A DNA stretch of 22,986 nucleotides from a virus: the IMG/VR virus record IMGVR_UViG_3300042731_009285, positions 1 to 22,986 of that record, one strand, 5' to 3'. Below, in pieces: positions 5,815 through 22,986 of this stretch (position 1 is the stretch's first letter; each line of letters starts with the position of its first letter). The notes below the pieces were generated by a model. The model was not told where the DNA came from. It did no database searches and worked only from the letters and a program-made list of their open reading frames with translations. The position numbers and the translations under genes were made by a program.

Positions 5815-7311
5815 ATGAGAGAACTCAGTTTTTTGAATGAAGAAGCCCGGGATATGGTGGATAACACTATCCTCGATGAGGATCTGAACCGGTTGTTGAC
5901 GAAACGGTGGGGACGTCTGATGGAGGACCATTGGACGCCATGGACGAGGCGTTGTATGGCTCAGTTGTTCGAGAACGAACAACGAGAGATGGCGCGGCTG
6001 AAACGCAAGGTGCTTTCCGAATCTACCCTTTCCGGAAATATTCCGGACTTGGTCAAGTTTGTATTCCCAATCGTAAGGCGAGTGTGGGCGAACTTGGTCG
6101 CAAATGGATTGTTCAGCATTCAGCCAATGAACTCCCCCATCGGTGGAATCTTTTTCTGGGAGTACAAGTATGGTACCAATAAGGGTACCATTTCGGCGGG
6201 ACAAAACATGATCCAGAATTTTGATCGGTATTATTCTTCGGAGTATGTCGATCAAGAGGCAATTGCCGGTACAAACACAGACTTTGCTGGGACACTTAGT
6301 TGGTTTCCAGTAAAGCCAGCAGGGTTGGGTCAGGTTGGTGTAGAGTTTGTTGCTACTGCTGTATCGGATGGTTCTCAGAAGCGAATTTATGATGCTGATG
6401 GCACTGGTTTTCTTACTGGTGATGTTGGTGGTGTTGCGGCAGACAATGATATTGATTTTGCAACCGGTCAATATGATCTGAAGTTCAGCGAATCGGTTAC
6501 AGGTCTTGTCGCGAATTATTTCTATAATATGGAAGCAAATAGCGACAATGTTCCTCAAGTGAACATCGATATTCAGTTGGAGGCCATCAAGGCGTTCAGT
6601 CGGAAGTTGAAGTTCCTGTGGTCGTCAGAGGCGTCTGACGATATGAGGACCGTTCTCAACATGGACATCGAACCCGAGCTTACCAGTGGGGTCGCGAGCG
6701 AGATCGCGCTGGGAATCGATAGGGAACTCATCATGGCCGCATATGGTAGTGGTACTACCAATACCGCGACTTTCGATGCAGCTGTTCCTCCCGGGCGAAA
6801 CCAAGTTGATCACTTCCGGAATATCACGACCGTCATCGAGAAAGTCAGTGGTGTCATCAACACCAGAACTCACAGGGGACCTGGCAACTTCCTGATCATC
6901 GGTCCGGATGTCCAACCGGTGTTGGCTTCATTGGCAACCCATGGTGACCTGGTTCAGATCGTGAACAATCCCCCGATGCCACCGGCTGGACAGGGTGTGA
7001 ACGGTCGACCGGCATTCCCGCTTCCACAGGCGCCATCCGGATACGGTGTTTATCCGATGGGTTTCTTGCAGAGCAAGTGGTTGGTGATTGTTGATCCTCA
7101 TTTTCCGGCGGGCAAAATGCTCGTTGGGTTGAAGGGCACAATGTTTACCGACTCTGGGGTTGTTTATGCCCCATATGTGCCGTTGCAGGTGACATCGGCA
7201 TTCCTCGACCCGGCGGATTGGTCCCTGAGAAAGGGTATCAGGACTAGGTACACCAAAAAGGTGGTGAACGCTGACTTCTACGGGGTCATTACGGTCACGA
7301 ATCTCCCATAG
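5815..7311 (+). CDS. Major capsid protein, T4 gp23-like (498 aa)
   Basis: GGAGG at 5804-5808 is 6 bases before the ATG. The protein has the gp23 layout: an N-terminal charged helical propeptide (residues 1-69), then IPDLVKFVFPIVRRVWANLV followed by the SIQPMNSPIGGIFFWEYKY segment equivalent to the VQPM-GP region of gp23. The C-terminal half includes IEPELTSGVASEIALGIDRE and NFLIIGPDVQPVLASL. Length is close to T4 gp23 (521). Residues 67-70 read L-S-E-S, fitting the (L/I)-X-E cleavage rule of T4-type prohead proteases; T4 gp23 is cut after residue 65. Residues about 157-240 form an insert, more AT-rich than the flanks, that resembles a segment of the tail sheath. A strong terminator hairpin follows. 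Confidence 0.96.
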   Translation: MRELSFLNEEARDMVDNTILDEDLNRLLTKRWGRLMEDHWTPWTRRCMAQLFENEQREMARLKRKVLSESTLSGNIPDLVKFVFPIVRRVWANLVANGLFSIQPMNSPIGGIFFWEYKYGTNKGTISAGQNMIQNFDRYYSSEYVDQEAIAGTNTDFAGTLSWFPVKPAGLGQVGVEFVATAVSDGSQKRIYDADGTGFLTGDVGGVAADNDIDFATGQYDLKFSESVTGLVANYFYNMEANSDNVPQVNIDIQLEAIKAFSRKLKFLWSSEASDDMRTVLNMDIEPELTSGVASEIALGIDRELIMAAYGSGTTNTATFDAAVPPGRNQVDHFRNITTVIEKVSGVINTRTHRGPGNFLIIGPDVQPVLASLATHGDLVQIVNNPPMPPAGQGVNGRPAFPLPQAPSGYGVYPMGFLQSKWLVIVDPHFPAGKMLVGLKGTMFTDSGVVYAPYVPLQVTSAFLDPADWSLRKGIRTRYTKKVVNADFYGVITVTNLP

Positions 7312-16824: not shown

Positions 16825-18975
16825 ATGGCTGAATATCTTAGTCCTGGATTGTTCTTGAGTGAACGAAAGGCTTCAGCTGGCCCTGTTCAGAGCGTATCGA
16901 CTTCAACCTATGCATCGGTGGGATGGCTCCAGAAAGGGCCGGAGAATGTTCCACAGTTGATCACGAGTTTTGCCAGGTTCGTGAGCATCTTTGGGAGCTA
17001 CTGGAGGAACAGTTACATCCCATATATGATAGCTGGTTTTTTTCAGAATCAAGGTGCGAGAGCGTACATCACTCGGGTGACGCCTTCAAATGCCACGAAG
17101 TCTACGAATGCGACCAGTCTGGATGATGCAGCTACGGCGGCTGAGTTCATCGGAAAAACGCTTGCGGCTACTGTGGATCTTTCCACAAACAGTTACATTG
17201 CAATCACTATCGATGGTGGAACGAAACATGAAATTAATTGTGTTGGGTCGACTCCAGCGGAAACAACTCCAACAGAGATTCAGACTGCCATTACGACAGC
17301 AATTGGAGCTGAGGGTACGTGCACTGTTGATACTAACAGAATTAAAATTGTCAGTGCGTCAACAGGTTCCTCCTCTTCCATAAAGATAGAAGAGGCTGCA
17401 TCAACTGATGCGACACCGACGATCCTTGGCCTTCCGGTTTCTGCTGCTGAAACCTATACCTATACAGGTAAGGCAGCATCGGATTGGACGGTTGATGCCA
17501 GGTGGAAGGGTGCTTGGTACAATCTGGTCAGGGTTTGCATTGCTGGGAATATCGATTACGAAGATGATAATGGTGGTTACACGAGGTTCGATGTTGTAAT
17601 TGAGGCAGAGTCCGCACTCGGCGAAGGTGATTGGGAAACCCTTGAGACCTATACTGCTGTTGTTCTCGATGATGATACGTCGGATTATTTTATCGAGGAT
17701 GTTGTCAACGACAAAACTGAGTATGCGCAGTTTACGGCCGGTACGGATTATGGGATTCCAAGGGCGTTGTTGCCTACCTATAATCTTGCTGAATGGCTTG
17801 CTGATGGTGACGGGGCGGAGGTTACTTTCAGCGGTACGCTCAGGAATCCGGTAGTACAGTCTGGAACAATGGAAATTGTTGCTGGTGCAATTACGGCGAC
17901 GGACAATGGTGACGGGACCTTGTCTGGAACTGGGGTTACTTCTGCGACAATTGACTATACTACTGGAGAATGGTCAATTACATATGCGGTTGCACCAACG
18001 GGTGGAGTACCGATCATTTCTAGCTACTACAAGGCGGCTACATCTGAAGAAGTGTGTGCTCAGTTGGCTAGTGGTATTGATGGTACAGGACCTCTTTCCA
18101 GGGGTGAGGTTACTGATCCAGCTTTGCAGGCCAGTAAACTTGGTCTGTATTCGTTTGAGACACTGGATGAAATCTTGAACATCTCGATGCCTGATTTTGC
18201 TGGTAATACGACGGTTACCAACGATTTGATTTCGTATGCCGAAAGTTCAAATCCGAAGAACAGGTTCGTCATTTGTACAACACCGATAGGTACCACTCCG
18301 ACGGACGCAAAGAAATTCGTTACAATTACGGCGAAGTACAATACATCATTTGCGGCATTGTATTACCCGTGGGTCAAAATATATGACCCGATTTCCGACG
18401 ATGGTCGGACGGTAACGGTTCCTCCTGATGGGTTCATTGCCGGAGTATATGCTCGGACGGACATCACCAGAAACGTCGGTAAAACGCCAGCTGGTTTGAT
18501 AGATGGTAAAATCAACGGGATCGAAGATGTCGAGCGTGTACTCGACAAGGGAGAGAGAGATATTCTTTATCCTGTCCGAATTAATCCTATTGCTTCATCA
18601 GTCCAAACTGGTCTTGCGGTATGGGGTGGTAAGACGCTCAGTAAAGACGCTGAGTGGCTCAACGTCAACGCCAGAAGGTTGTTCATGTTCTGCGAGCAGT
18701 CGCTTTACAATGCAAGTTTCTGGGTTCCTTTCGAGAACAACGGACCTGGTCTATGGAGCAGGATGAAAAAGCAGGGAGAAGGTTTCCTGTTGAGACTGTT
18801 TAGGAATAATTATTTCAAGGGCAAGACTCCTGATGAGGCGTATGTTGTCATCTGTGATGAGAGCAATAATACGACCGAAGAACAGGATGCTGGTTTCGTT
18901 ACCATCGACTATTATTTGGCGCCTGGAAAACCGGCAGAATTCGTTAGGCTCAGGTTCCAACAGAAGGTCGACTAG
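16825..18975 (+). CDS. Tail sheath protein (716 aa)
   Basis: AAGGAGG at 16812-16818 is 6 bases before the ATG. The N-terminus MAEYLSPGLFLSERKASAGP and the ITSFARFVSIFGSYWRNSYI, FFQNQGARAYITRV segments are standard for contractile-tail sheaths, as is the C-terminal part LWVFVPF-like run (here FCEQSLYNASFWVPFENNGP), then LWSRMKKQGEGFLLRLFRNN, a KGKTPDEAYVVICDESNN segment and a PAEFVRLRF end. Two inserts enlarge it beyond T4 gp18 (659): residues about 110-215 (Thr/Ser-rich, beta) and about 335-403 (module resembling an insert of the capsid protein). The sheath forms the contracting outer tube around the tail tube encoded next. Confidence 0.97.
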   Translation: MAEYLSPGLFLSERKASAGPVQSVSTSTYASVGWLQKGPENVPQLITSFARFVSIFGSYWRNSYIPYMIAGFFQNQGARAYITRVTPSNATKSTNATSLDDAATAAEFIGKTLAATVDLSTNSYIAITIDGGTKHEINCVGSTPAETTPTEIQTAITTAIGAEGTCTVDTNRIKIVSASTGSSSSIKIEEAASTDATPTILGLPVSAAETYTYTGKAASDWTVDARWKGAWYNLVRVCIAGNIDYEDDNGGYTRFDVVIEAESALGEGDWETLETYTAVVLDDDTSDYFIEDVVNDKTEYAQFTAGTDYGIPRALLPTYNLAEWLADGDGAEVTFSGTLRNPVVQSGTMEIVAGAITATDNGDGTLSGTGVTSATIDYTTGEWSITYAVAPTGGVPIISSYYKAATSEEVCAQLASGIDGTGPLSRGEVTDPALQASKLGLYSFETLDEILNISMPDFAGNTTVTNDLISYAESSNPKNRFVICTTPIGTTPTDAKKFVTITAKYNTSFAALYYPWVKIYDPISDDGRTVTVPPDGFIAGVYARTDITRNVGKTPAGLIDGKINGIEDVERVLDKGERDILYPVRINPIASSVQTGLAVWGGKTLSKDAEWLNVNARRLFMFCEQSLYNASFWVPFENNGPGLWSRMKKQGEGFLLRLFRNNYFKGKTPDEAYVVICDESNNTTEEQDAGFVTIDYYLAPGKPAEFVRLRFQQKVD

Positions 18976-18994: not shown

Positions 18995-19492
18995 ATGGCA
19001 CGGACAACATCAGAAGATCAGATTCAGAGCTTCAGGTTTCGTGTTTTTGAGGATGCTAGTGGTCCTGGAATCTTTGCGGATGAGAATCCAATTGCAGGGT
19101 TCACAACAGTGACTACGCCTGAGATAACTTCGGAGACGGCGACTCATCGGACGGGGTCTGAGAAGACGACCAAAAAGTTTCTGGGATCTGTCGAATATGG
19201 CGATGGTACGCTGTCTCGGGGTATCCTTCTTGGGGACTCGACTTTCTACAACTGGATCGAAAGGTATCGGAACAAACAGCCGTTTCGTACAGATCTTGAG
19301 ATAAGGGTGTACAACCAAGAAGGTGATGGTACGTCTCCTGATGATCAGTATGTCAAGGCTGAAACTTGGAGGGAGTGCGTACCGACGTCTGTCAAGCCAC
19401 TTGGGGATCTCGATGCGGCATCAGCCGATGTGAACCTTCAAGAGATTACAGTTGCGGTCGAAGAGGTTGAGGTTGATTCCCCAACGGCTTAG
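18995..19492 (+). CDS. Tail tube protein, T4 gp19-like (165 aa)
   Basis: AAAGGAGG at 18977-18984 serves the ATG. At 165 residues it matches T4 gp19 (163). The pattern FRFRVFEDASG, IAGFTTVTTPEITSETATHR, then KKFLGSVEYGDGTLSRGILL and FYNWIERYRN is typical of the family: two sheets and a helix that stack into hexameric rings inside the sheath. It directly follows the sheath gene, the usual order. Confidence 0.93.
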   Translation: MARTTSEDQIQSFRFRVFEDASGPGIFADENPIAGFTTVTTPEITSETATHRTGSEKTTKKFLGSVEYGDGTLSRGILLGDSTFYNWIERYRNKQPFRTDLEIRVYNQEGDGTSPDDQYVKAETWRECVPTSVKPLGDLDAASADVNLQEITVAVEEVEVDSPTA

Positions 19493-19511: not shown

Positions 19512-20195
19512 ATGGCAAGGACTCAAATCCAGGACGATCTCTTATCGCATGAGTTCCACATTATTGATGTGGACGTGCAACCCCCGTTTAACCCACCTTT
19601 TGTTCTTTGGCCCACTGTAGGGTTCTCAAATATTTCTCCACCTGAGATGACGGTTGAGACAGAAACCATTTCAGAGGGGACTAGTGATTATGTTTACACG
19701 GTACTAAAAAAGGCTTCTACTTCGAGCATCACACTTTCGAAAGGTGTCAGTATGTTCAATGCTGATTTTTGGAAGTGGATGGCCGGTGCAATAGCAGGTA
19801 AGAATGAGAGTTCTCTTGGTCTTACGACGACGGCAAGTATTATACCTCCAGCGAGAAGGCGAAACCTGTTGTTGCTACATTCGTCTGGTTTATCTGTTGA
19901 AGGGATCAAGGAAATAATCGAGACTGGTTCATTTATTGACAAAGCGCGAGCGGTTCAGCTCTTACCGGCTGCTGGAGTTACGGCATTGACTTCTGCGGCC
20001 GTTTCAACATTGAGTCAGGGAGTAACAGACCTCAACATGTTGGCGGTCCCTGGAAGGGCATATATGCTGTTTGATTGCCTTCCGATAAGGTATCGTGCTG
20101 CTGGTGAATTTGATGCCAGTACGACTGCTGTGAGTATTGAGGAGCTTGAATTGTCATATACGAGATTTGAGCTAATGGGAGCGCTTGGGTCATGA
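19512..20195 (+). CDS. Second tail-tube-like protein (227 aa)
   Basis: The ATG has no strong SD; it lies 19 bases after the tube stop. The protein follows the same plan as the tube protein (MARTQIQDDLLSHEFHIIDV, ISPPEMTVETETISEGTSDY, then LKKASTSSITLSKGVSMFNA and FWKWMAGAI), with an added helical and loop region of about 60 residues (residues about 115-175), and an end (SIEELELSYTRFELMGALG) that mirrors the tube's last strand. It is probably a tail-tube paralogue that serves as tube-initiator, tail-tip or terminator subunit. Family membership is inferred from shared motifs. Confidence 0.85.
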   Translation: MARTQIQDDLLSHEFHIIDVDVQPPFNPPFVLWPTVGFSNISPPEMTVETETISEGTSDYVYTVLKKASTSSITLSKGVSMFNADFWKWMAGAIAGKNESSLGLTTTASIIPPARRRNLLLLHSSGLSVEGIKEIIETGSFIDKARAVQLLPAAGVTALTSAAVSTLSQGVTDLNMLAVPGRAYMLFDCLPIRYRAAGEFDASTTAVSIEELELSYTRFELMGALGS

Positions 20196-22130: not shown

Positions 22131-22986
22131 ATGGCAAATAATTTTGATGGTCTTGGTGTCGGCTTCGAGGTAGAAGACAATGATTCAACAAAAAATGTAG
22201 ACAACCTTGCGTCATCATTTACTGATTTGTGGGGAACTCTGAAGCGGGTAGGAAGTGCTGTTCCAAGAGTTGGGGCCAGTATGACCCGTGGTTTTCGTAG
22301 ACTCGGGGCCTCTAGTGCTAAATCAGTTGGGATGATGAGCACAGCTGTTGGTGCATTGATAGATAAGGCCATGGATCCTCAATTGGATTCGGCATATGCC
22401 TCGATGTATGCTGGTTTTAACAAAGAATTCTCGGCGTTGACAGCTGGCATGAAAGAGACGGAAGGTGACCTTACCCGGTCGAGAAAGAGGATTGGTGGAA
22501 TCGCTCAAGGGATGGGGGAAGATATGAATCAAGCTGCTCAGAACTGGCTGGCTTTTGAGCAGAGGGGTATTGAGTTAGATAAGGTGCTCGGGACTCAAGG
22601 GTTGACCAAGACAATGCAGGGCATGATCAAGGTGACTTCTGTCTTTGGTCTGGAAGGACGTCAGTGGGCAAACATTGCTGCCAGTCTAAAAAATTCATAT
22701 GGTCTAACGGAAGAAGCAATTGGGGGTCTAGGGGACAAGATTGTTGCTGTTGGTAGAGAGTTCAATATGGGGCGTGAGGCGATACAGTCTTGGCCCAATA
22801 TAATGCAGGTGTTAAATAAGGAGCTCGCTGATTTTGGTCAGGAGATAACACCAGACAAATTGGATAAGCTCACAACATCGCTGGTCCAGTTGGGAGGTGG
22901 ATTTAAGCAGGCTCTTGGTATTGATCCAGCTGAAGCGATGGAGTTGGCAACACAGTCGTTTTCAACATTAGCGGCTGAGAGGAAAA
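22131..22986 (+). CDS. Tape-measure protein (N-terminal part, 3' end missing)
   Basis: GAGGAG at 22118-22123 lies 7 bases before ATG 22131, one base after the previous stop. The frame stays open to the window end, 285 codons. The N-terminal sequence MANNFDGLGVGFEVEDNDST is followed by a Gly/Ala/Met-rich, long helical region (SVGMMSTAVGALIDKAMDPQ, ASMYAGFNKEFSALTAGMKE) and then continuous amphipathic helix with alternating hydrophobic and charged residues, as in phage tape measures, which set tail length inside the tube. Position directly after chaperone and membrane protein fits this. It is truncated by the window, so its C-terminal features cannot be seen. Confidence 0.85.
   Translation, partial: MANNFDGLGVGFEVEDNDSTKNVDNLASSFTDLWGTLKRVGSAVPRVGASMTRGFRRLGASSAKSVGMMSTAVGALIDKAMDPQLDSAYASMYAGFNKEFSALTAGMKETEGDLTRSRKRIGGIAQGMGEDMNQAAQNWLAFEQRGIELDKVLGTQGLTKTMQGMIKVTSVFGLEGRQWANIAASLKNSYGLTEEAIGGLGDKIVAVGREFNMGREAIQSWPNIMQVLNKELADFGQEITPDKLDKLTTSLVQLGGGFKQALGIDPAEAMELATQSFSTLAAERK

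Follow-up and report, generated by a model that had tools for sequence, protein, structure and literature searches.

A beta domain common to the gp23-type capsid and the contractile tail sheath of a myophage

The window considered here, the whole stretch of viral DNA that was analysed, is a complete IMG/VR record of 22,986 bases that ends early within the gene following position 22131. On its plus strand, 5815..7311 encodes a gp23-type major capsid protein of 498 amino acids, which matches the Pfam Gp23 family (PF07068) at 2e-54, PHROG 138 (major head protein) at 1.6e-55 and the T4 gp23 chains of solved structures at 5e-20; by homology it is a gp23-family capsid protein of the HK97 fold. The contractile tail sheath protein, of 716 amino acids, is encoded on the same strand at 16825..18975 and is recognized by Pfam Phage_sheath_1 (6e-9) and PHROG 23 (tail sheath, 5e-60), with matches to solved sheaths down to 3e-69. 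The best solved sheath covers only residues 1-115 and 468-713 of the protein, which is, as aligned, a conserved N- and C-terminal core with additional domains in between. The window may also encode two tube-like proteins, as the consecutive genes 18995-19492 and 19512-20195 each have a match in PHROG 4542, a tail tube family (1.6e-9 and 6e-4).

An initial annotation of the window proposed that capsid residues 157-240 (nt 6283-6534) and sheath residues 335-403 (nt 17827-18033) are the same module, and it suggested profile comparison and structure prediction as checks; its coordinates, reading frames and quoted peptides were all exact. The capsid copy is here delimited somewhat more broadly, at residues ~150-242 (6262..6540, plus strand), and the sheath copy at residues ~327-407 (17803..18045, plus strand), immediately N-terminal of the C-terminal sheath core. 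When an 85-residue sheath segment was compared with phage genomes by tblastn, it was head proteins that came back, and not sheaths: the major head protein of QdP_Psa3 (5e-7), the major capsid protein of SP-15 (2e-6) and a gene of phiXF1 (8e-8) that is annotated as hypothetical but matches gp23-type capsids. The capsid segment found a sole, weak match in the same search, to SP-15, and a consensus-like module query against the phage collection found phiXF1 only. A profile built from the capsid copies of seven other phages, without any window or sheath sequence, recognized residues 327-402 of the window sheath with 45.6 bits (E 3e-13, Z=1000), and residues 137-243 of the window capsid at 3e-11. 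Profile-profile alignment by hhalign of the capsid family (21 copies) with the sheath family (30 copies) gave a probability of 99.2% and E=6e-20, a significant match that bears out the proposal and confirms the two segments as homologous copies of one beta domain of ~75 amino acids.

Structure prediction agreed. AlphaFold2 models were made from separate alignments, one of capsid copies only and one of sheath copies only, and both segments emerged as confident, nearly all-beta domains, with a mean pLDDT of 83.4 for the capsid copy and 87.1 for the seven-stranded sheath copy. Their strands fall on corresponding residues in the same order (capsid/sheath: DFAGT/TFSGT, VGVEFVA/EIVA, QKRIYD/ITATD, FLTG/TLS, DID/VTSATI, QYDLKF/EWSITY and LVANYFY/ISS, the final two being given as one long run in the capsid model). 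Searched with Foldseek against the PDB, the sheath copy had as its top match a capsid protein, gp23 of phage P1 (9ukm; probability 1.00, E 0.046, TM 0.69 by query length). In BFVD, both major capsid proteins and a tail sheath (TM 0.78) are among its top matches. The capsid copy model had no PDB match at E<=0.001 (highest probability 0.69), and 9ukm is absent among its 50 best PDB matches, so that what can be said of its fold comes from the model and from homology. The BFVD phage proteins A0A6J5LGE5 and A0A6J5L3G3, labelled "Ubiquitin-activating enzyme E1, FCCH domain containing", also match the module (TM 0.56-0.60); a literature search for "FCCH" with phage returned nothing relevant, and the label is probably an automatic misnomer that implies no ubiquitin-related function.

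The initial annotation regarded the capsid segment as an insert in an otherwise normal protein, a description that does not hold. Alignment of capsids, together with profile alignments to the gp23 proteins of T4 and P1, puts the module in the stretch from the E-loop start (MNSPIGGIFF..AG) to the spine-helix block (IKAxSRKLKxLWSSEA), which is the regular I-domain site of this capsid family, and the module is present there in all close relatives. It is the I-domain of a gp23-type capsid rather than a foreign insert. Compared with all PDB sequences, the module profile found residues 226-296 of P1 gp23 (E=3e-4) as its sole match below 0.1, and in the profile alignment the flanks of that P1 segment are in register with those of the window capsid. 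The two proteins share the gp23-type HK97 fold and the slot between the E-loop strands, and the P1 domain, divergent as it is, remains recognizable by sequence and is also the top structural match of the window's sheath copy. The greater AT content attributed to the capsid insert is real but slight: the copy has 43.7% GC against 50.2% for the capsid gene and 45.6% and 52.0% for its 252-nt flanks, a value that is ordinary for the window, 43% of which lies at or below it. The sheath copy, at 48.3% GC, is similar to its gene (47.5%). A reading of the module as foreign DNA was rejected, since the AT excess is mild and is absent from the sheath copy.

Not every gp23-type capsid fills this slot with the same domain. 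The slot contents of 69 other gp23-type capsids, T4-like ones included, showed no convincing relation to the module by hhalign or hmmsearch, and among those listed they range from 51 to 147 residues. For T4-type slot sequences hhalign gave probabilities of 0.1-0.3% (E 0.2-0.6), and homology with them was discarded, there being no hhalign signal and nothing convincing by hmmsearch. The I domain of T4 gp23 and gp24 has the same place as the module, on the E-loop of gp23-family capsids, but no sequence relation to the module was found for the slot contents of T4-like capsids (hhalign probability 0.3%). In the capsids of four other loci (L112-L115) the slot insert, of ~140 residues, resembles the module only marginally (best E about 0.002), and the sheaths of these phages have two or three copies of the module. 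In Bacillus phage SP-15 (L027, 4563-7080) a putative endonuclease gene interrupts the capsid gene shortly after the module, and the capsid is annotated in that record as a joined CDS.

Among 10,727 ORFs on 175 loci, the module was found in 33 capsids and 37 sheaths, with two further matches, to a half of the split capsid of SP-15 and to a truncated sheath. It occupies a single constant slot in every capsid that carries it. Sheath copies occur in at least two slots, at residues ~130-200 or ~330-405, with one to three copies per sheath (the L013 sheath has two). In the window sheath, the position used by the module in other phages' sheaths is taken by a second added domain, unrelated to the module (residues ~110-214; 17152..17466, plus strand), which was delimited by alignment and by its own profile; that profile matches only sheaths of the same clade and, weakly, L107. 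The domain shows the pattern ITIDGG...EI..AI...ILGL. A search of a genome collection gave one weak relative of the sheath, on a contig (L216) of a Spirochaetia metagenome-assembled genome (36% identity, E 5e-16), a match that yields no host assignment.

The proposal that the module is shared by head and sheath is correct as far as it goes, but the distribution is wider and, in near relatives, takes in the baseplate and further tail proteins. Copies were found in a baseplate wedge protein (PHROG 219, 2e-33), in a P2 gpI-like protein (Tail_P2_I, 2e-7) and in several unnamed proteins of related records. One copy also occurs in an NHL propeller-repeat protein of a related phage (L209, 9798-13001). 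Near relatives have six copies (G001) and four (G002), and other related records up to ten, counts that cover only part of several of the genomes. Each of seven isolated phages has a single copy, which lies in a gene annotated as capsid in six of them and in the gp23-like "hypothetical" gene of Xanthomonas phage phiXF1 in the seventh, whereas tail copies were seen in uncultured phages only. From this we infer, on a biased sampling, that the capsid is the older home of the module.

How the resemblance between the two proteins arose can be read in several ways. Segments rich in Gly, Thr and Asp that form beta strands could resemble each other by chance, and direct comparison does little against this: BLASTP of the window capsid with the window sheath gives 28% identity over 88 amino acids at E=0.047, which is only suggestive. 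Profiles of the window clade are similarly faint (sheath-clade to capsid 0.057, capsid-clade to sheath 0.021; best domain, Z=1000), and the direct match is faint because such profiles alone are too narrow. The Smith-Waterman score of segment against segment is nonetheless 57, where composition-preserving shuffles average 27.2 (sd 5.1) and none of 5,000 scored as high; the sheath copy is the top scorer among 867 overlapping 69-residue pieces from all ORFs of the window; and with the seven-phage capsid profile, which gives the real sheath 45.6 bits, none of 2,000 shuffled sheaths scored above 12.1 bits. With these controls and the hhalign result, chance similarity is ruled out as an explanation and is to be considered extremely improbable. 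The segments might instead be ordinary members of the immunoglobulin-like family known to be promiscuous among phages. The model is beta-sandwich-like, Foldseek gives weak matches to Ig variable domains, and Bact_surface_Ig-like (5e-4) and He_PIG (0.003) each match one of 35 copies. Against membership, any one Pfam family matches at most three of the 35 copies, the window sheath copy matches none meaningfully, and the Ig matches have TM values of 0.41-0.58, below the 0.69 of P1 gp23; we consider this assignment unlikely. Among PHROGs, too, the module has no named family, and only 6128, 9261 and 1014, all of unknown function, were found.

As to the origin of the two copies, the initial annotation envisaged transfer within the genome or two acquisitions. 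A recent copying of the module between capsid and sheath inside the phage lineage would account for both copies being found together in a genome and across the same neighbouring lineages, and among contigs that hold both genes, 15 loci have both copies and none has the capsid copy only, a count in which redundant contigs were left unmerged. The tree of 81 module copies over 86 columns largely refutes it. The window's capsid copy falls in a group with ten further copies from capsids (support 100/99), its sheath copy in one with four from sheaths (98/97); judged by their sequences, copies group by host protein and not by genome across the clade, so that both window copies predate the split of their clade. 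The window sheath copy is, moreover, closer to the capsids of other phages (5e-13, 2e-12) than to the capsid copy of its own genome (blastp E=0.047), and recent transfer is thus very unlikely. A different history, in which two or more independent, old acquisitions drew on a shared pool of phage structural domains in place of one old duplication from one protein into the other, is a real possibility, somewhat below even chances. Sheath copies sit in differing slots and in several separate groups of the tree, which shows 12 changes of location where the least possible is 3 and shuffles give 41.8. Many forks are, however, open on 86 columns, and for the capsid and for sheath site II the least number of origins forced is 1. 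Sheath site I copies group with those in P2-gpI-like and neighbouring tail proteins (98/89), which hints at exchange among tail genes.

The account that we favour is of one promiscuous beta domain of ~75 residues that this group of myophages would have reused on the exterior of its virions. In the head, the module is the I-domain of the gp23-type capsid, and the linkers of the E-loop carry it, as they do in phage P1; the homologous copy of the sheath is one added domain between the N- and C-terminal core. Surface exposure, which the initial annotation had assumed for both copies, agrees in each case with position. The capsid copy aligns to the P1 I-domain, which protrudes outward, touches the P-domain of the adjacent capsomer and is structurally similar to that of T4 (PMC12810830). 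The T4 I domain, of about 60 residues, is described as chitin-binding-like (PMC9958956, PMC3185693); it rests on the neighbouring subunit and reinforces the capsomer (PMC9958956). For the sheath, "Evolution of Phage Tail Sheath Protein" describes additional, often Ig-like domains in types 2 and 3 of the protein, located away from the tube and proposed to stabilize the sheath or to aid adhesion (PMC9230969). The module is therefore taken to be exposed on head and sheath alike. By analogy with T4 and P1, the capsid copy may clamp neighbouring subunits, resting on an adjacent subunit or capsomer and so stiffening the shell, and the sheath copy may pack laterally in an outer layer, give weak adhesion, or both. 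Taken as a whole, this picture of a packing domain that faces outward and may also adhere weakly is in our judgement probable, the adhesive part being held with less confidence than the rest.

Promiscuous beta domains of phage virions are a known kind, to which the module adds a tie to a capsid I-domain. The Ig-like domains of Fraser et al. 2006, as cited in PMC9230969 and PMC10385173, are likewise small beta domains that occur across unrelated virion proteins and are thought to be accessory and adhesive; the module differs from them in lying outside the Pfam Ig families at any reliable score and within the chains of capsid and sheath. Sharing between head and tail is not described in the portion of PMC12810830 that was available, nor does the available text of PMC9230969 link added sheath domains to capsid or baseplate, where the window's added domain has identifiable relatives. 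Capsid I-domains and extra sheath domains are usually treated apart and as phage-specific, and here one uncurated family joins them.

A bolder version would have the outer surface of head, sheath, baseplate and other tail parts built from one capsid I-domain family with a common binding face. We regard this as a long shot; if it were true, one partner could bind along the entire virion, and this might be a decoration protein of the phage, a glycan on the host surface or a neighbouring particle. The question that follows is whether the copies share a ligand or merely a stable fold. On the practical side, the module is without a Pfam family, and a new model for it would be of use and could annotate many unnamed phage proteins, among them members of PHROG 6128 and the "FCCH domain" phage proteins. 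For this group of phages, the module offers a concrete case of domain reuse across the virion, one that runs from head and sheath to a baseplate wedge and further tail proteins and reaches ten copies in a single record.
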